A stretch of 64,000 nt of DNA from Thalassia testudinum (taxonomy: Eukaryota > Streptophyta > Magnoliopsida > Alismatales > Hydrocharitaceae): contig JAZHRO010000036.1 in assembly GCA_037157565.1 (NCBI GenBank), positions 140,980,501-141,044,500 of the forward strand, in the 5' to 3' direction. This document shows positions 36,846-63,927 of this stretch, piece by piece; the stretch's first letter is position 1, and every line of letters starts with the position of its first letter. Under the pieces are notes generated by a model. It was not told the DNA's origin, searched no databases, and worked only from the letters and a program-made list of their open reading frames with translations. The position numbers were made by a program, and so were the translations under genes.

Positions 36846-38142
36846 TGTTGAATCGCTTTGAAACGGATTTTAAAATCGTCGCGTTGTAGTATAGATTGAA
36901 TCAGCGTGAAGAACAAATAATATTTATACTCGAGAGAAATCTGAGGTCGTTCGCTGGGAGCAGGCGGTAATTTAAAACTCAAGATCACAATTTGAGTCAA
37001 AGATATAAGAAATTACAATCAAGACTTAATAGAAATGAAATGCAAAAAGAAGGGGTTAAAATGGCGATTTGAATCACCAAATTAACCTTAAAATCTAACT
37101 ACAATTATTTCAAATGCTTGCACAGTATCAACCACAATTAATTCACGCAAGATGAGTAAGTAATAGATCCTGAGAGGCTTTGATATGTGAAATAGATGAT
37201 GGATGCATAGATCAGATGTCTGAAACAACTAGTTGCTACAATGTCTCCAAGAGACTCAAGGGTGTCTTCTTCCTTTCTTCTTTGGTGTTCTCTTCTTTCT
37301 TCCTTTCCTTGGCTCTTTTCCTCTTTTTGCGACTAAGTGTCGCACAACTTCCTGCAAGAGCAAAACCCCCCTCCCCTCTCTCTCTTTTCTTCTCCTTAAC
37401 CCCCTCTCAGATATATGCTAATTGGATCCAGGTATACGGGAAATGGTTCAAAGCTCAAACCCGCGTGGCATGGCCGCTGGCGAGAGCATGTGTGGATTCG
37501 TGTGAGGGGACCTTACCACGTGCAACTGAGGCAACGAGGTAAAAGCAGAAATTCAATTTAAACTGCACGTGGGCTTCGGTGCTTTCCAATGTGGGACTAA
37601 GTCCCCTACAATTCTTCGCGACAACCTTCGTGAGCTGCAGTGAGTTTCTTCACCAAATTGGAGCAGCTACTGAGGTTCACACTCCCAATTAGGGACCTGG
37701 GAGTCTGGAGCTATTAGTTCCGCACCACCTGGTGTTGGTGCTAGAGCACCACGATCATTTGTTTTGATGATAACAAAACACGTGTTATTTAACATTTGCA
37801 ATTTGAGTCCTAGATTTCAGGTCAATTGCAAATGTGGACGTGTTTAGACGGAACTCGAGCTCGCATCCAGGACGGATTGAAGGAGCTTGACGGAAAACAG
37901 AGGAGGTTCGCATGGAGCTACAGATTGAAGATGGAAGGAAATGAAGAATAGGATAGATTTCCTTCTTTTGTACTCGTTGTATTTTTCGTTTCTTTTGTTG
38001 CTCTTTATTTCCTTAGATATTTTATGTTAAAGAGCCTCAAAGAACCCTAACAGTAGTCCTAGGAACACCGGCACAACCCTAGGATACTTAGGTTTTCTGT
38101 AGAATACTTAGAAAACCAATATAGGGTTCAAACAGCACTTCC

Positions 38143-38682
38143 AGACGTCTAATTCCCAAATCAGACGTCTGATAAAGAATTTTAAGACGTCTGACTGTTG
38201 TTTCAGACGTCTGATAACTGTTAGGCTGGACATAGTTAGTTCTGTCTGATGAAATCAGACGTCCAGACCTTATACCAGACGTCTTAGGAGACGTCTGATG
38301 ACTTTGCCAGACGTCCAATTAGTGGACCGTTGGCTGGCTTAGAAAACACTCAAGATTATGACCGTTAGAGCCTTATCAGACGTCCATAGGACTTTACAGA
38401 CGTCTGATAAATGACCGTTTTGCCTCGGCTGACCCAAAATCTCTTCTCAGAGATTTTCTAGCCGTTGCAACGTTTGGAAATCAATTCCCACAGTAAAAGT
38501 AGGTTTCCAGACGTCCAGACATAGTGCCAGACGTCCTGTATGTCGTCTGATGGACTTGCGCAAAAACCCTGTTTAGATCTGATTCAAGTCAGGGAGAAAC
38601 CCGCATAGAATCAGACGTCTGACCTTGTAATCAGACGTCTTAAAGTGGCCTTCCAGACGTCTGATGCCAGAGTTAGACGTCT
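38143..38682 (+). promoter_or_regulatory. Array of eight paired AGACGTCY palindromes
   Basis: Box starts are 38143/38163, 38185/38205, 38257/38277, 38289/38309, 38378/38398, 38509/38529, 38613/38633 and 38655/38675. Every pair has exactly 12 nt between boxes; distances between pairs vary. Most pairs form inverted repeats of the type AGACGTCTGA-N8-TCAGACGTCT. The array lies 110-650 bp upstream of the TATA box. GACGTC is a known plant bZIP (C-box) core, so tandem activator sites are a reasonable guess. Confidence 0.8.
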
Positions 38683-38793
38683 GATGACCCTTTCAAATGT
38701 AATCATTGTCCTGATTTCGGCCTGATTCTCTTGGGCTTTGCACCCAACGGCTATAGAACCTTTCTTAAGCCTTCCAAAGCCTTCCTAAGGCCT

Positions 38794-38803
38794 CTATAAA
38801 TAG
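38794..38803 (+). promoter_or_regulatory. TATA box of the small Sirevirus
   Basis: CTATAAATAG, repeated in the 3' LTR at 42058-42067 and, inverted, near 59204-59215 in the solo LTR. Confidence 0.75.
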
Positions 38804-39486
38804 AGGGAGCCTTTGCAACTCAAAAACACACAAGAGATACACTTAGAAAAACACATATACACACTAAGACACACACCTTGCAATACACTTTCAAACCTTT
38901 TGTGTCCAAAGAAAAGACTCTCTTGCTCTCCAAGCTCAAGCTCCATTTTCTTGAGAGCATTCAACCGTTGCGCACCCGCTCTCCCGGCGTTGTTAACGAG
39001 AGCGACGTAGCGCCATCGCGTGGCACACGCACCGCGTCATCGTCGACGCACTCCTTGCAAAGGGGAGTTTCCTATTTCCTATAGAAGCTAGGTTTAATTA
39101 TTTTGTTGGCTCTATAGGACTATTGTTTATTTTATCTTTGTCTTTTGGTTGGGTATTCGCTTTGCGAATTCCCGTCTCCTTCGTGGGACAAAATCCTTCT
39201 CGTGGAGAGAAGGGGTTGAGGAACGCTACCCTCGTACTTGTAGCGTGGTTGTACTGAGGTTGAATCACCCTCGTTTAAAGTGATTCGTTTAGTGGATTTT
39301 GATCAACTTGGTTGATCGGAAAATCCTAACTCGAGAGGGTTAGGTGGTGGTTTTCACCCGGTTTGGGTTTCCACCTAAAAATACCTGTGTACTTTTTTGT
39401 GATTGCTAATTTCTTGTGATATTGCTTTATATATTTATTTCCGCATTTTATTACGTCACCCCTCCTGGTAGTAGGGAACCTTCAAT

Positions 39487-39498
39487 TGGTATCAGAGC
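39487..39498 (+). other. Primer binding site (initiator Met tRNA)
   Basis: TGGTATCAGAGC, two bases after the 5' LTR. Confidence 0.95.
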
Positions 39499-39541
39499 AG
39501 GTCTCGCGTTATCGGCGTAACAAACCGGCGAGGATCTAGAC

Positions 39542-40672
39542 ATGGAGGGAAAAGCATTCGTGTGCACTGAAGGACACGATACCTCGCGACCACCATACTT
39601 TGCAGGTATAGATTTCATTTATTGGAAAAATCGTATGACTATGTGGTTGCAGGCCTACGACTTCCGGGTGTGGGAAAAATGCGAATCCGCATTTTTGATT
39701 CCCAAGAAACCCGCAAAAGGTTACTCAGAAGATCAGGTTCAGAATCTCAACCTCAACGCAAAGGCAATGAATGCCTTGTATTGCGCGTTGAGTCTGAAGG
39801 AGTTCGAGAAAATCCAAGAGTGCACCACCGCCCACGAGATATGGAGGAGGTTGGAAGGCACTCATGAGGAGACGAGTTCGGAAGAAGATCTCGGAGAGAA
39901 GGAAACCACGTGCCTTGGTTTCATGGCAATCGGAGAAAGCGACATCGACAGCGAAAGCGACTCCGACAATGAGGTAAACCTGGATTTACAAGATGCTTTT
40001 AATGAGCTTTTTGAAGTTAGTAAATCACTTAGAATCGAAAACAAAAGCATTAAAAAGAATCTTAGTTTTCTTAGAAATGAAAATGATAGGTTAGAAATAA
40101 AACTTAAGGATCTAGAAGCTAGTCCTAAAAATGATAACCTATTATTAGAAAATCAAAACCTCATCAATGAAAATAATAAATTGATTGAGGAAAATAATAG
40201 TCTAAAGTTAGAAATTTTTGATTTAAAGACTAAGATGCAAATTATAGAAAGAGAAATTGCATGTCTTAGGGAAAACTCTAACAAATTAATCAATAAAGTA
40301 GATAATTTTTATAGCCCTAAGATTGAGAAAGGATCTCCATCAAGGAGACCTTCTAACAAATCCGGATCCAAGCCCACTTGGATACCGAAAAAAGAATTAG
40401 AATCTTGTTTTGTAGGGTTCAGGGATAATTACAACATAAGGGACTGGACCTACAAGCTCAAGGCTGGTCAACTCAAGTTAGGAGAACCAAGGAGTAGACC
40501 AAGGAGGAGAACAAGAAGACCGACGAGACGGCGAACAAACGACGGACCCGCCGCACGTCGACCACCAGATTGGAGACCGGTGCCAATGCCCGGGCCTCCA
40601 AGCTACGGATGGGAGCCCCATCCGATGTGGCATCCACCACCACCATTCGGGCCATTTTATTGGCCATGGTAG
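39542..40672 (+). CDS. gag: Gag-like protein of the small Sirevirus (376 aa)
   Basis: ATG 44 bp after the primer site. Residues 1-115 match the N-terminal part of copia Gag (RPPYFAGIDFIYW, AKAMNALYCALS, IWRRLEGTHE). The second half of the usual Gag capsid region and the CCHC zinc knuckle are absent. After an acidic Ser/Asp/Glu stretch (about 119-145) comes a long coiled coil rich in Glu, Asn and Leu (about 150-270), as in Sirevirus Gag. Residues about 317-334 are strongly Arg-rich. The end (345-376) is Pro/Trp-rich. The Arg-rich part could replace the zinc knuckle in RNA binding; that is inference. The frame is fully open, which fits recent activity. It is likely a particle component that co-assembles with helper Gag. 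Confidence 0.88.
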   Translation: MEGKAFVCTEGHDTSRPPYFAGIDFIYWKNRMTMWLQAYDFRVWEKCESAFLIPKKPAKGYSEDQVQNLNLNAKAMNALYCALSLKEFEKIQECTTAHEIWRRLEGTHEETSSEEDLGEKETTCLGFMAIGESDIDSESDSDNEVNLDLQDAFNELFEVSKSLRIENKSIKKNLSFLRNENDRLEIKLKDLEASPKNDNLLLENQNLINENNKLIEENNSLKLEIFDLKTKMQIIEREIACLRENSNKLINKVDNFYSPKIEKGSPSRRPSNKSGSKPTWIPKKELESCFVGFRDNYNIRDWTYKLKAGQLKLGEPRSRPRRRTRRPTRRRTNDGPAARRPPDWRPVPMPGPPSYGWEPHPMWHPPPPFGPFYWPW

Positions 40673-40716
40673 GTGAGGTAAAATTCTTAACCCTATCTTT
40701 TTATAAGCATTTAGAT

Positions 40717-40995
40717 AGGGGGAGTTAAAAATTAATGAGCTAATTGTCAATTTTTAAGGGGGAGATATAAGGTAGCTAAATTTCCTTTAGAAAGGGGGAG
40801 AAAAATAATAGCTATCGCATTGTTACAAAAAGGGGGAGGACATTACCTTTGTCAAAAGAAACTCATAGAAGAGCATGTTTTAAGGGGGAGTTATAGGAAA
40901 TATAAAATCAATTAAACCTTTTTGATAATGTCAAAAAGGGGGAGGATTTTTATGCATTATTATTTACGATTTTGTCATCATCAAAAAGGGGGAGA
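40717..40995 (+). repeat. Seven polypurine copies before the 3' LTR
   Basis: AGGGGGAG at 40717, 40757, 40793, 40831, 40883, 40937 and 40987; the last is directly before the 3' LTR. Multiplied polypurine tracts are a known Sirevirus trait, which supports the family call. Confidence 0.85.
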
Positions 40996-40996
40996 T

Positions 40997-42747
40997 TGTT
41001 GGTGCTAGAGCACCACGATCATTTGTTTTGATGATAACAAAACACGTGTTATTTAACATTTGCAATTTGAGTCCTAGATTTCAGGTCAATTGCAAATGTG
41101 GACGTGTTTAGACGGAACTCGAGCTCGCATCCAGGACGGATTGGAGGAGCTTGACGGAAAACAGAGGAGGTTCGCGTGGAGCTACAGATTGAAGATGGAA
41201 GGAAATGAAGAATAGGATAGATTTCCTTCTTTTGTACTCGTTGTATTTTTCGTTTCTTTTGTTGCTCTTTATTTCCTTAGATATTTTATGTTAAAGAGCC
41301 TCAAAGAACCCTAACAGTAGTCCTAGGAACACCGGCACAACCCTAGGATACTTAGGTTTTCTGTAGAATACTTAGAAAACCAATATAGGGTTCAAACAGC
41401 ACTTCCAGACGTCTAATTCCCAAATCAGACGTCTGATAAAGAATTTTAAGACGTCTGACTGTTGTTTCAGACGTCTGATAACTGTTAGGCTGGACATAGT
41501 TAGTTTTGTCTGATGAAATCAGACGTCCAGACCTTATACCAGACGTCTTAGGAGACGTCTGATGACTTTGCCAGACGTCCAATTAGTGGACCGTTGGCTG
41601 GCTTAGAAAACACTCAAGATTATGACCGTTAGAGCCTTATCAGACGTCCATAGGACTTTACAGACGTCTGATAAATGACCGTTTTGCCTCGGCTGACCCA
41701 AAATCTCTTCTCAGAGATTTTCTAGCCGTTGCAACGTTTGGAAATCAATTCCCACAGTAAAAGTAGGTTTCCAGACGTCCAGACATAGTGCCAGACGTCC
41801 TGTATGTCGTCTGATGGACTTGCGCAAAAACCCTGTTTAGATCTGATTCAAGTCAGGGAGAAACCCGCATAGAATCAGACGTCTGACCTTGTAATCAGAC
41901 GTCTTAAAGTGGCCTTCCAGACGTCTGATGCCAGAGTTAGACGTCTGATGACCCTTTCAAATGTAATCATTGTCCTGATTTCGGCCTGATTCTCTTGGGC
42001 TTTGCACCCAACGGCTATAGAACCTTTCTTAAGCCTTCCAAAGCCTTCCTAAGGCCTCTATAAATAGAGGGAGCCTTTGCAACTCAAAAACACACAAGAG
42101 ATACACTTAGAAAAACACATATACACACTAAGACACACACCTTGCAATACACTTTCAAACCTTTTGTGTCCAAAGAAAAGACTCTCTTGCTCTCCAAGCT
42201 CAAGCTCCATTTTCTTGAGAGCATTCAACCGTTGCGCACCCGCTCTCCCGGCGTTGTTAACGAGAGCGACGTAGCGCCATCGCGTGGCACACGCACCGCG
42301 TCATCGTCGACGCACTCCTTGCAAAGGGGAGTTTCCTATTTCCTATAGAAGCTAGGTTTAATTATTTTGTTGGCTCTATAGGACTATTGTTTATTTTATC
42401 TTTGTCTTTTGGTTGGGTATTCGCTTTGCGAATTCCCGTCTCCTTCGTGGGACAAAATCCTTCTCGTGGAGAGAAGGGGTTGAGGAACGCTACCCTCGTA
42501 CTTGTAGCGTGGTTGTACTGAGGTTGAATCACCCTCGTTTAAAGTGATTCGTTTAGTGGATTTTGATCAACTTGGTTGATCGGAAAATCCTAACTCGAGA
42601 GGGTTAGGTGGTGGTTTTCACCTGGTTTGGGTTTCCACCTAAAAATACCTGTGTACTTTTTGTGATTGCTAATTTCTTGTGATATTGCTTTATATATTTA
42701 TTTCCGCATTTTATTACGTCACCCCTCCTGGTAGTAGGAAACCTTCA
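40997..42747 (+). repeat. 3' LTR of the small Sirevirus (1751 bp)
   Basis: Near-identical to the 5' LTR. The paired-box array is at 41407-41946 with the same spacings. Confidence 0.95.
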
Positions 42748-58576: not shown

Positions 58577-60269
58577 GTAGTTTCCCAACCAGAAGGGGGT
58601 GACGTAATAAATTGCGGAATTGAAAATAAACAATTTCACAAAAATCAATCACACATGGTACACAATTATTTTTAGGTGGAAACCCAAACCGGGTGAAAAC
58701 CACCACCTAACCCTCTCGAGTTAGGATTTTCCGATCAACCAAGTTGACCAAATCCACTAAACAAATCACTTAAACGAGGGTGATTCAGCCTCAATTACAA
58801 CTACGCTACTTTATACGAGGGTAGCGTACCTCAAACCCCTTCTCTTCACGAGAAGGATTTTGTCCCACGAAGGAGATGGGATTTGCAAAGCGAATACCCA
58901 ACCAAATAACAAAGATAAAATAACAAGTATAGTCCTATAGAGCCAACAAAGATTTAAACCTAGCTTCTATAGGAATTAGGAAACTCCCCTTTGCAAGGAG
59001 TGTGTCGAATCGATGACGCAGGTGCGTGAGCCACGCGATGGCGCAACGTCGCTCTCGTGAACTACGGTGGGAGAACGGGTGCGCAAAGGTTTGATGCTCT
59101 CAAAATGTAGAACTTGAGCTTGGAGAGCAAGGGCTTCTCTTGGACACAAAAGAGTGTGAAAAGTGTCTCTAGGTGTATCTTGATGTGCAAGAGGTTCCTC
59201 TCTATTTATAGAGGCCTTAGGAAAGCTTTAGAAGGCTTAGGAAAGCTTCCATAGCCGTTGGGTGCAAAGCCCAAGAGAATCAGGCCGAAGTCAGGAACAA
59301 TGATTGCACTGACAAGGTTATCAGATGTCTGATCATGGCATCAGACGTCTGGAAGATCTCTTTAAGGTGTCTGAAAATAAGATCAGACGTCTAATTTTAT
59401 GCGGGTTTCTCCCTGACTTTAATCAGATCTAAACAGGGTTCTAGTGCAAGTCCATCAGACGACATATAGGACGTCTGGCACTATGTCTGGACGTCTGGAA
59501 ACCTACTTTTTCGTGGGAATGGATTTCCAAGAGAGTGCAACGGCTAGAAATCTCTGAGAAGAGATTTTGGGTCAGCCGAGGCAAAACAGTCATTTATCAG
59601 ACGTCTGGAAAGGCCTAAGGACGTCTGATAAGGCTCTAATGGTCATATCCTTGAGTGTTCGTTAAGCCAGCCAATGGTCCACTAATTGGACGTCTGGCAA
59701 AGTCATCAGACATCTTCTAAGACATCTGGTCTAAGGTCTGGACGTCTGATTTCATCAAACAGAACTAACGAGTCCAGCTTAAATGTTATCAGACGTCTGA
59801 ATCAACAGTCAGACGTCTTAAAACACATTATCAGACGTCTGATTTTGGAATTAGACGTCTTAAAAGGCTGTTTGAACCCTATATTGGTTTTCTAAGCTTT
59901 TTACAGAAAACCTAAGTATCCTAGGGTTGTGCCGGTGTTCCTAGGACTACTGTTAGGGTACTTTGAGGCTCTTTAACAAGATTTTCTAAGGAACAAAAAG
60001 AGCAACAAAAGAAATGAAAAATGCAAAGAGTACAAGAGAAGGAAATCTATCATATGCTTCATCTCCTTCTTTCTTCAATCTATCGCTCCTCGCGAATCTC
60101 CTTTGTTTTCCATCAAGCTCCTCCAATCCATCATGATGCAAGCTCGAACTCCGTCTAATCACGTCTCCATTTGCAATTGACCTGAAATCTAAGACTCCAA
60201 GTGCAAATGTTAAATGACACGTGTTTTGTTATCATCAAAACAAATGATCGTGGTGCTCTGGCACCAACA
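58577..60269 (-). mobile_element. Solo LTR of the small Sirevirus family (1693 bp)
   Basis: Flanked by GCTGT (58572-58576, 60270-60274). It is the inverted form of the LTR at 37733-39484, diverged by many substitutions. It has TTATAGAGG-type TATA sequence near 59204-59215 and all 16 box positions at 59323-59860. Four boxes carry substitutions (AGATGTCT, AGGTGTCT, AGACATCT twice). Confidence 0.92.
59323..59860 (-). promoter_or_regulatory. Paired-palindrome array, diverged copy
   Basis: Box starts 59323/59343, 59365/59385, 59469/59489, 59599/59619, 59688/59708, 59720/59740, 59791/59811 and 59833/59853. All eight pairs keep the 20-bp offset. Compared with the young LTR the only spacing changes are single bases between pairs (110 versus 111, 51 versus 52). 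Confidence 0.8.
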
Positions 60270-61606: not shown

Positions 61607-63927
61607 TGATTACACAACAATCATAGGTCTTAATTGACCTAAATTAGGCTAGGACTTAGCATAAGATAGGGTAATTCATGCATGCATGAGCATTATATGC
61701 ATCTTCACTGCTTTACTTTAGCTATGCATAAAATAATGTTATAATGTGCTGATTAAGTGCATTATGTTGATTGCAGGTAATAAGCTGATCAGAAGCCGGA
61801 TCTGGAGTAGGATCTAAAGCTGGATCAGGAATAATGGGTGTTGCAGCAGAGCCGGAGCAGAAGGCTTAGATTAGATGTAGGAATAATGATGTAAGGGAGT
61901 CAAGGTTTGCTATTCTACTAAGTAGGAATAAAGCAATAAAATGTGAAGAGCTTAGGTCCATCCTAGCCCTAGGATAGCCTAGAGACTTCCCCCAAGCCTT
62001 AGCTACCCTTAGATTAGGTCACAGCACCCTAGGAAGGCCCAAAACCCTAGTTCCAACCCTTCTTATTTGGACGTCCAAGTAAGTTATAGGATGTCCAGAA
62101 CCCTTAACCAACTCCCGCACACCTCAAACCCACTTCTGCAGAGTTATTGGACGTCCAGACACTTTATCAGACGTTCAATTTCTGCAGAATACCTAAAATA
62201 GAACCTAGATTTCCCCCTGACTCAGATTGGACATCCAAAACTGAAGTATGGACTTCTAATTTTTTAGTATAAGTCATCTGATCATGTTTTTGGACGTCTG
62301 GAACTGGTCTCCAACCCCTGTTTTGAGATTCAAGCCTTGATCTTGGATCTCTAGCTCCCTAAACCTAATCCCAACCCCATAGGAACCTAAATTAAGGTGT
62401 CCTAACCCTAGTACATCACCTCTAGACCTACCTAACGACCTAATTAGGTCCTCACTAAACCTAATTGACTTAGATCAAAGTCAATTGGACTCATTGAGTC
62501 CAATTGAGCTCAAATCTCAGCCCACACAAGTTCAATTGGACTTAGTGAGAGTCCAATTGACCTAAGCCCAAACTAATTGAGTTATTTCACTCTCAATTAG
62601 GTTCACACTCATTCAATTTAACTTGGGTTAAGCTTAATTGCAAATTCCCCTTAGCAATTAGGGTTTGCAACCCTAATTCAAGGCATACACCTACCTAAAC
62701 CCCTTAGGACCTAACCTATATCACTTAGACACCAACGGCACGACCACACACACACACACACACCCATTCACGCACTCCCACACATCTAGAGTTCTCTAGA
62801 ACTCTCTCCAAGTGGTGCCACTCTTGGTTGACAAAATTAGCAACCAAGAGGCATTTAAATTGAGATCCACTTTTTGTGGATCTCAAAACCACTTGGCCAG
62901 CCACTCATTGGAGCTCTCTCTAGAGAGTTCCACACTTCTCTAGAGAGACTCCCTTAGGTCTATAAAAAGACCTAAGCGGTGGCCATTTTCACCCATCCAC
63001 TTTTGGCCATACATGCTTGGCTCCATCTCCATCCACCTCCACTTAGGCTAGCCATTACCATGTCCACTCCATCTCCACGAGCTAAGCACCACCATGAAGG
63101 ACACCACACCAGGATGCTGGATCACTCCTCCAACCTCTCTCTAAGGGCTAGCCTAAGCTCCATTGGCTGCCCCTCATTCTCCTCTCAACCACTCCAAGGC
63201 CATCGGAGCCCACCTCCGAATGCCCTCACTTCTGATAGATTAGTAGCTAGTTCTTTACATTTACTGTTTATATTAACTGCTTGGTAGTGTAGTCCTTATT
63301 CTGCCCCAATGATGCATGCAAAATCACCCCATAGATTCTTGTATGCGATCATTTTCTGGTAGCTAGACTTACATTTTTAAGCATTCCTATACAAGCTTTC
63401 CTCTATGTTTCATGTTGCAAACACTGCTCCAAATGAATGAATAAAAGATACATTTTTATCTATATCTCTATGTTTTGAAATCACCATGAGCTTATTGGTT
63501 GGCATCCTTTCTGCGTGATTCAAGTTGCCTATTTTTTTCACTTATATTTCACAACAAGCATGTCGTTTCTGGAAAATATAGAAAATCAAACTATAGATGC
63601 ATTTTCTGTAAACAGCCATCACCTCACTAGAATTGTGCTCACAGAAACTCACACTTTCACCTTTGTGATCTATTTAACACATGCGCACGTAATCAGGGTT
63701 CATAATAGAAGTGGTGAAATATTAATCTGAAGACTGGAAATCGGTGTGCAATTTTAAACAAAGTAGAGCGGTAAACGATCAAATTCAAAAGTAAAACAAA
63801 CGCCTCCCAAAGACGAATGACAGGGACTCAAAGTCTTATTATCTTTAGAAAATAATTTTTTGTTTAATCATATTGCGCACTATACTACGACGCTTTTAAT
63901 ATCAAAATGCGCTCTACGATTCCGACA
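61607..63927 (+). mobile_element. Solo LTR of Athila-like type, diverged (2321 bp)
   Basis: Starts TGATTACAC and ends CCGACA. Flanks are ATGTT (61602-61606) and ATGTC (63928-63932), a 4-of-5 match. Position was confirmed because the sequence on both sides rejoins when compared with 30440-30490. TATA (TATAAAAA) at 62961-62968. The end has the inverted GTCGTAGTATAG block. Four paired ACGTC-type boxes lie at 62069-62299. A CA run lies at 62744-62763. Confidence 0.75.
62069..62299 (+). promoter_or_regulatory. Four paired GGACGTCC-type boxes
   Basis: Pairs at 62069/62089, 62149/62169, 62229/62250 and 62272/62292: offsets 20, 20, 21 and 20 bp. They lie 660-890 bp upstream of the TATA box, in a different LTR family from the Sirevirus. 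Confidence 0.6.

Follow-up and report, generated by a model that had tools for sequence, protein, structure and literature searches.

What would read a promoter in which short palindromes are set out two by two at an unvarying distance? The question is raised by a stretch of 64,000 nucleotides from Thalassia testudinum (contig JAZHRO010000036.1, positions 140,980,501 to 141,044,500; hereafter the window, to which all unprefixed coordinates refer), in which both LTRs of a retrotransposon carry a set of sixteen AGACGTCY boxes. The features of this element and its surroundings are as follows; entries for boxes are unstranded.

37733 to 39484, plus strand: 5' LTR of a Sirevirus-type element, with TG...CA ends, a CCTGG target duplication and an adjoining PBS
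38143 to 38682: sixteen AGACGTCY boxes of the 5' LTR
38143 to 38170: box pair 1, N12 spacer
38185 to 38212: box pair 2, N12 spacer, 10-8-10 inverted repeat
38257 to 38284: box pair 3, N12 spacer
38289 to 38316: box pair 4, N12 spacer, 4 letters past pair 3
38378 to 38405: box pair 5, N12 spacer
38509 to 38536: box pair 6, N12 spacer
38613 to 38640: box pair 7, N12 spacer, 10-8-10 inverted repeat
38655 to 38682: box pair 8, N12 spacer
38795 to 38800, plus strand: TATA box, 112 nt past the last box of the 5' LTR array
39485 to 40996, plus strand: internal part, with the PBS at its start and a gag-like ORF, lacking a pol ORF of at least 100 aa
39542 to 40672, plus strand: gag-like ORF of 376 aa (Pfam Retrotran_gag_2, 34.8 bits, cut-off 27)
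40717 to 40994, plus strand: seven AGGGGGAG polypurine tracts, the 3' LTR beginning 10 bp past the start of the last
40997 to 42747, plus strand: 3' LTR of the Sirevirus-type element
41407 to 41946: identical set of sixteen boxes in the 3' LTR, 3264 bp downstream of the set in the 5' LTR
58658 to 60269, minus strand: older member of this LTR family (86.6% identity), with partly decayed boxes at 59343-59860

The element is a young, pol-less copia element of the Sirevirus type, and both its type and its youth had been recognized in the preliminary description of the locus. CCTGG target duplications lie on both sides of the LTR pair, and the two LTRs differ by four substitutions across their first 1665 bp, with one further substitution and one single-base indel seen by eye near the LTR end. 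A distance of 10 bp from polypurine tract to LTR, together with an AT/TG junction, is a hallmark of Sireviruses (Bousios et al., 2010; PMC2829016); here, the last AGGGGGAG tract is at 40987 and the 3' LTR at 40997, with AT/TG between them. All seven of the identical tracts stand within 280 bp ahead of the 3' LTR, and an inverted repeat with 17-nt arms and one mismatch, found by eye, spans the PPT/LTR junction. Besides the gag-like ORF, no ORF of at least 100 aa was found in the 1512-nt internal part, so that the window copy is non-autonomous. Further same-strand LTR pairs of this family (family A) occur approximately 3.2 kb apart at L025 and L015/L016 (C1:134.6-139.3 kb), as in the window, and the pol-less form thus seems to have multiplied. 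A protein search with the gag-like ORF gave four matches among 3,760 candidates: two from JGI, one from ENA and one from Arachis stenosperma. The JGI matches have 92% and 81% identity to the ORF and are annotated as 'regulator of replication initiation timing', a label that is probably mistaken and owed to the coiled-coil part of the gag-like protein.

The boxes of the 5' LTR start at 38143, 38163, 38185, 38205, 38257, 38277, 38289, 38309, 38378, 38398, 38509, 38529, 38613, 38633, 38655 and 38675, giving successive start-to-start distances of 20, 22, 20, 52, 20, 12, 20, 69, 20, 111, 20, 84, 20, 22 and 20 bp. The eight pairs with a 12-nt spacer first described at this locus are thus present in both LTRs, all eight at 20 bp, and the array does lie upstream of the TATA box, its last box 112 nt before it. 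As had also been claimed, spacing is fixed inside the pairs (20 bp in 8 of 8) and freer between them (22, 52, 12, 69, 111, 84 and 22 bp). The range of 12 to 111 bp previously given for the gaps between pairs holds for start-to-start distances; as gaps proper, 4 to 103 letters separate neighbouring pairs. Inverted repeats of the 10-8-10 form, attributed to several pairs, were found in two of the eight (38185 and 38613), and in the other six the outside-in pairing extends over eight letters in two, over seven in two and over none in two. The spacers of the eight pairs are no more alike than shuffles (mean likeness 4.75 of 12 vs 4.72), in agreement with the earlier view that the pairs are not simple tandem duplicates. 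Tandem duplication as the origin of the pairs was rejected for family A on this comparison; in a second family, B, introduced below, the spacers have a slight likeness (p = 0.0075). The first four boxes (38143-38212) and the last four (38613-38682) have the same 20-22-20 spacing, and these two ends of the array are alike when inverted (74-76% over 74-76 nt).

The spacing was then followed through the 4.26-Gb assembly by exact counts, with each motif read backwards as its control. AGACGTCT alone occurs 988,779 times (reversed control 93,763), and pairs of it with any spacer of 0-30 nt number 358,049 (control 955). The pair AGACGTCT-N12-AGACGTCT accounts for 212,299 occurrences (control 6), compared with 825 for N11 and 896 for N13 (control 3 in each case); one base more or less than the 20-bp spacing thus lowers the count approximately 250-fold, and many of the listed N11 and N13 pairs resemble, by eye, one-base indels of N12 pairs. 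N4 pairs number 54,917 (control 1), and hence two spacings are favoured genome-wide, 20 bp and 12 bp centre to centre. For AGACGTCY, N12 pairs number 282,095 on one strand and 281,917 on the other (controls 764 and 693), counts that overlap between strands and are not additive. The preliminary description had staked its claim on a genome-wide peak at 20 bp, and such a peak was found in the T. testudinum genome. Box-to-box distances were also tabulated in a sample of 234 kb comprising 17 loci in addition to the window; 12 of these loci were chosen because box matches were there. The 415 boxes with at most one mismatch gave 448 distances of 8-64 bp; exactly 20 bp was found in 151, followed by 32 (61), 52 (46), 42 (44), 12 (32), 22 (24), 62 (21) and 40 bp (17), with a few others. 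Of the 57 possible distances, 37 were absent from the sample, and the control motif TCTGCAGA gave no distance peak in the same 234 kb. Since the genome-wide counts are inflated by the copying of families, the independent cases are few: eight pairs in family A, nine 20-bp intervals in the reference LTR of family B (three of which rest on boxes with two mismatches) and three of four intervals in a third family (C). Among IMG/VR viral contigs, one stretch has an N12 pair (L026:6926-6953), with no other box in the 301 bases around it.

The other families raise the question of how far the pairing extends beyond Sireviruses. The sample contained 287 RGACGTCY boxes, 175 in family A LTRs, 85 in family B LTRs and 27 elsewhere; of its 107 pairs at 20 bp, the corresponding numbers are 72, 30 and 5. 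A 20-bp box pair outside the LTRs of both families lies at L023:5948-5975. Family B is, by the domain content of its ORFs, a Ty3/gypsy chromovirus: these match models for gag, aspartyl protease, RT, RNase H, the integrase zinc-binding domain and the chromodomain, with an integrase core match below the model cut-off. Its LTR is approximately 2.7 kb long, and blastn of the family A LTR against that of family B returned short matches only, almost every one of them at boxes and the best with E 2.5e-5. Boxes occur on both sides of one TATA-like candidate in family B, so that their upstream position is uncertain in this family. A further set was found in the window itself:

62069 to 62299, unstranded: four pairs of GGACGTCC-like boxes (no more than two mismatches), spaced 20, 20, 21 and 20 bp, likely of a third, gypsy-type family

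These boxes lie approximately 660 nt ahead of a TATA-like stretch (by eye), and GGACGTCC-N12-GGACGTCC occurs 1,437 times genome-wide (control 50). Of 9,426 candidate copies of the 62069-62299 stretch, 40 were scored; among them are three same-strand pairs with 10.4-11.8 kb between their members, and between one such pair are matches to gag, RT and RNase H, along with an integrase match below cut-off, in gypsy order. The stretch likely lies in the LTR of a third, gypsy-type family, which, to judge by its gag and RT, may have an affinity with Athila. A supposed fourth group at C1:144793-145034 was rejected, being a diverged LTR of type B that is interrupted by a solo family A LTR. A solo family A LTR nested within a diverged chromovirus-type LTR lies at C1:145153-146886. 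The original designation of the array as a Sirevirus LTR motif stands in the window, and has to be widened in two respects: the pair is also present in Ty3/gypsy LTRs, and N4 spacing is favoured as well.

Which parts of the pair are kept was assessed in an alignment of 13 family A LTR copies, and again in 11 copies without the LTR pair of the window, left out because the boxes had been defined from it. At non-CpG sites of the 11 copies, the mean pairwise difference was 0.025 in box letters (96 sites), 0.156 in the spacers inside pairs (93 sites), 0.095 in the gaps between pairs (288 sites) and 0.097 in the rest of the LTR (999 sites). The contrast between boxes and spacers plus gaps was reached by none of 10,000 permutations, and the spacers were more variable than the remaining LTR (p = 0.003). 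Spacer length, in contrast to spacer letters, was 12 in 81 of the 83 comparisons with both boxes present; both exceptions have a 52-bp insertion, and in the one copy inspected this insertion has boxes within it in a 20/32/20 register. Gap lengths between pairs, with comparisons involving a lost box likewise dropped, were kept in 63 of 73 and changed in 10. With box letters and spacer length kept while spacer letters drift, what counts in family A is how long the spacer is, not which letters fill it. Copies of family A share inherited box positions, and in one of them (L019:5966-6567) a 12-bp deletion fuses boxes 6 and 7 into one complete box. With family B (6 copies), the differences were 0.053 in boxes, 0.112 in spacers, 0.145 in gaps and 0.059 in the rest of the LTR; its boxes are therefore not clearly better conserved than the LTR remainder (0.053 vs 0.059). 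The central CG of family A boxes varies (0.136), as other CpG sites do, and CpG decay after insertion affected 9 of 71 sites in boxes and 44 of 328 outside in five LTR pairs, of which that on the minus strand of C1:470-500k may not be the two ends of one element and that of L025 is truncated. Old sites are thus not specially guarded, and lasting methylation protection of the boxes was rejected.

Repeated cis-elements that recruit host factors in plant copia LTRs are familiar from Tnt1 and Tto1, and the array resembles them as a set of repeated elements in a copia LTR; their repeats are arranged in tandem, are confined to one family and are not known to form strict palindrome pairs. With a GC content of 44.8% and a CpG observed/expected ratio of 0.92, the sequence here does not reach the GC threshold of 50% usual for a CpG island. 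The Sirevirus motifs mentioned in the preliminary description are indeed on record: the repeated motif (RM) of Sireviruses consists of clustered palindromic boxes ahead of the TATA box, with at least eight copies in the upstream half of the LTR, beginning 200-400 bp in and spanning 300-500 bp (Bousios et al., 2010; PMC2829016). The array in the window agrees with this in its palindromic boxes, its sixteen copies per LTR and its position in the upstream half before the TATA box, and it begins 410 bp into the LTR and spans 540 bp, just outside both ranges; moreover, the RM of Usier contains GGACGTCC (PMC2829016). It differs in its AGACGTCT core (GAC-GTC), which is without the CGG-CCG core that the RM of Tnd-1 likewise lacks, in its strict 12-nt spacer, in forming no CpG island by GC content, and in the presence of its box in Ty3/gypsy LTRs, the RM having been called Sirevirus-specific against other Ty1/copia elements (PMC2829016). 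The passages of that paper used here state no spacing rule, while its figures and supplements show box positions in which such a rule could be visible. As far as searches of the open-licence literature show, three features are apparently new: the exactness of the pairing, a AGACGTCT core that lacks CGG-CCG, and the occurrence of the pairing rule in Ty3/gypsy LTRs.

Taken as a binding site, each box pair is rather probably a composite one, where one host factor would sit as two dimers side by side and turn LTR transcription on. As the box is a palindrome, the candidate protein recognizing it would be expected to bind each 8 bp as a dimer, presumably a homodimer, and the unvarying spacing of close to two helical turns points to contact or cooperation between two such dimers across the pair, their centres 20 bp apart (exactly two turns would be 21). 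The conservation of box letters beside free spacer letters suggests that the boxes alone are recognized, and such a factor should tolerate A or G, and refuse T, next to the GAC-GTC core. The position of the array upstream of the TATA box points to control of transcription, which the bound dimers may activate from there, given that the bearers of the boxes have multiplied. The binder would be a host transcription factor, as the pair is shared by unrelated families and superfamilies.

Could this factor be a plant bZIP of the C-box type, placed as two dimers as on as-1? This special case of the two-dimer explanation was the one named at the outset, and we consider it rather unlikely. GACGTC is the C-box, and TGA dimers do bind tandem palindromes as two dimers in a manner for which spacing matters (PMC9360754). 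In as-1, the palindromes are 4 bp apart and their centres 12 bp apart (PMC4677692, PMC3354754); the boxes described here are likewise paired ACGT-core palindromes, and the N4 class (54,917) has this geometry. The larger N12 class (212,299) does not, its centre distance being 20 bp, and insertions between the as-1 palindromes reduce binding (PMC3354754). Furthermore, TGA-type bZIPs require TGACG (PMC9360754), which neither the family A LTR boxes nor the first 1100 bp of the family B LTR contain. A TGA/CREB site was rejected, as TGACGTCA-N12-TGACGTCA occurs once genome-wide vs 212,299 for AGACGTCT-N12-AGACGTCT, and the expected acceptance of A or G, and not T, beside the core also argues against TGA/CREB-type bZIPs. 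Judged from these motifs, a TGA-type bZIP is an unlikely binder, and the initial proposal would have to turn to other bZIPs. RWP-RK factors were considered as well, and the literature gave no support for them.

An element-encoded anti-silencing protein, like VANC of VANDAL elements, would instead bind the boxes and remove methylation from them. VANDAL elements do carry many copies of dense, short motifs in their non-coding parts (PMC5735166), as do the LTRs described here; however, the VANC21 motif is seldom found in other TEs and stands in same-orientation tandem repeats (PMC5735166), whereas the boxes are palindromic and fixed in spacing, have spacers unlike each other, and occur in copia and gypsy LTRs alike rather than being nearly private to one family. 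As the box CpGs also decay like others, an anti-silencing role is distinctly unlikely. A host repressor or silencing factor whose grip had spread over the elements would leave an identical anatomy, and sharing across families suits a host factor; elements gain by losing repressor sites, yet the box letters are kept while their neighbours drift, and we give this explanation little credence.

That the array is a functionless leftover from duplication within an ancestral LTR, passed from copy to copy, is very unlikely. Box positions are inherited among copies, one copy grew by a 52-bp duplication, and the ends of the array are alike when inverted, all of which would suit a relic; against this, family A spacers are no more alike than shuffles (with the slight likeness noted in family B), boxes are kept while spacers drift in family A, less clearly so in family B, and an unrelated LTR follows the same rule. 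Finally, a role of the boxes as RNA hairpins at the 3' end of the genomic RNA is highly improbable: the array, as any set of palindromes would, gives a fold far superior to those of shuffled sequences (z = -11.5, 0 of 100), and its spacer flanks pair slightly above expectation (31 vs 23.0, p = 0.018, 11 spacer clusters), an excess that is gone within spacer classes (p = 0.20 and 0.59), whereas both-sided change was found in 1 of 156 predicted pairs, the covariation term was unfavourable (+2.76; 11 of 13 copies), and a hairpin does not demand exactly 12 loop letters. RNA hairpins were rejected as supported neither by covariation nor by within-class flank pairing, the overall flank value having been obtained before splitting. 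In the RNA fold, the inverted likeness of the array ends supplies a long stem.

The two-dimer site is thus the preferred reading. Few families of plant retrotransposons have a known host factor as their driver, and a site so strict, so abundant and common to two superfamilies would offer, as a paired CAGACGTCTG oligo, a concrete probe with which to fish out the factor. The spacing rule also extends the Sirevirus box clusters described in 2010, and it is testable in every sequenced Sirevirus. More tentatively, it is conceivable that a promoter code is common to a copia Sirevirus, a gypsy chromovirus and a third family, also of gypsy type, which came to it by convergence or exchange: a two-dimer site at a fixed 20 bp and a further one at 12 bp, both read by a single host DNA-binding protein. 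Such a shared site would help to explain the multiplication of unrelated elements in one genome. If this were true, the approximately one million boxes would rank with the most numerous sites that a single factor has in any genome, and the dose of that factor would be tied to the activity of much of the retrotransposon complement of T. testudinum.
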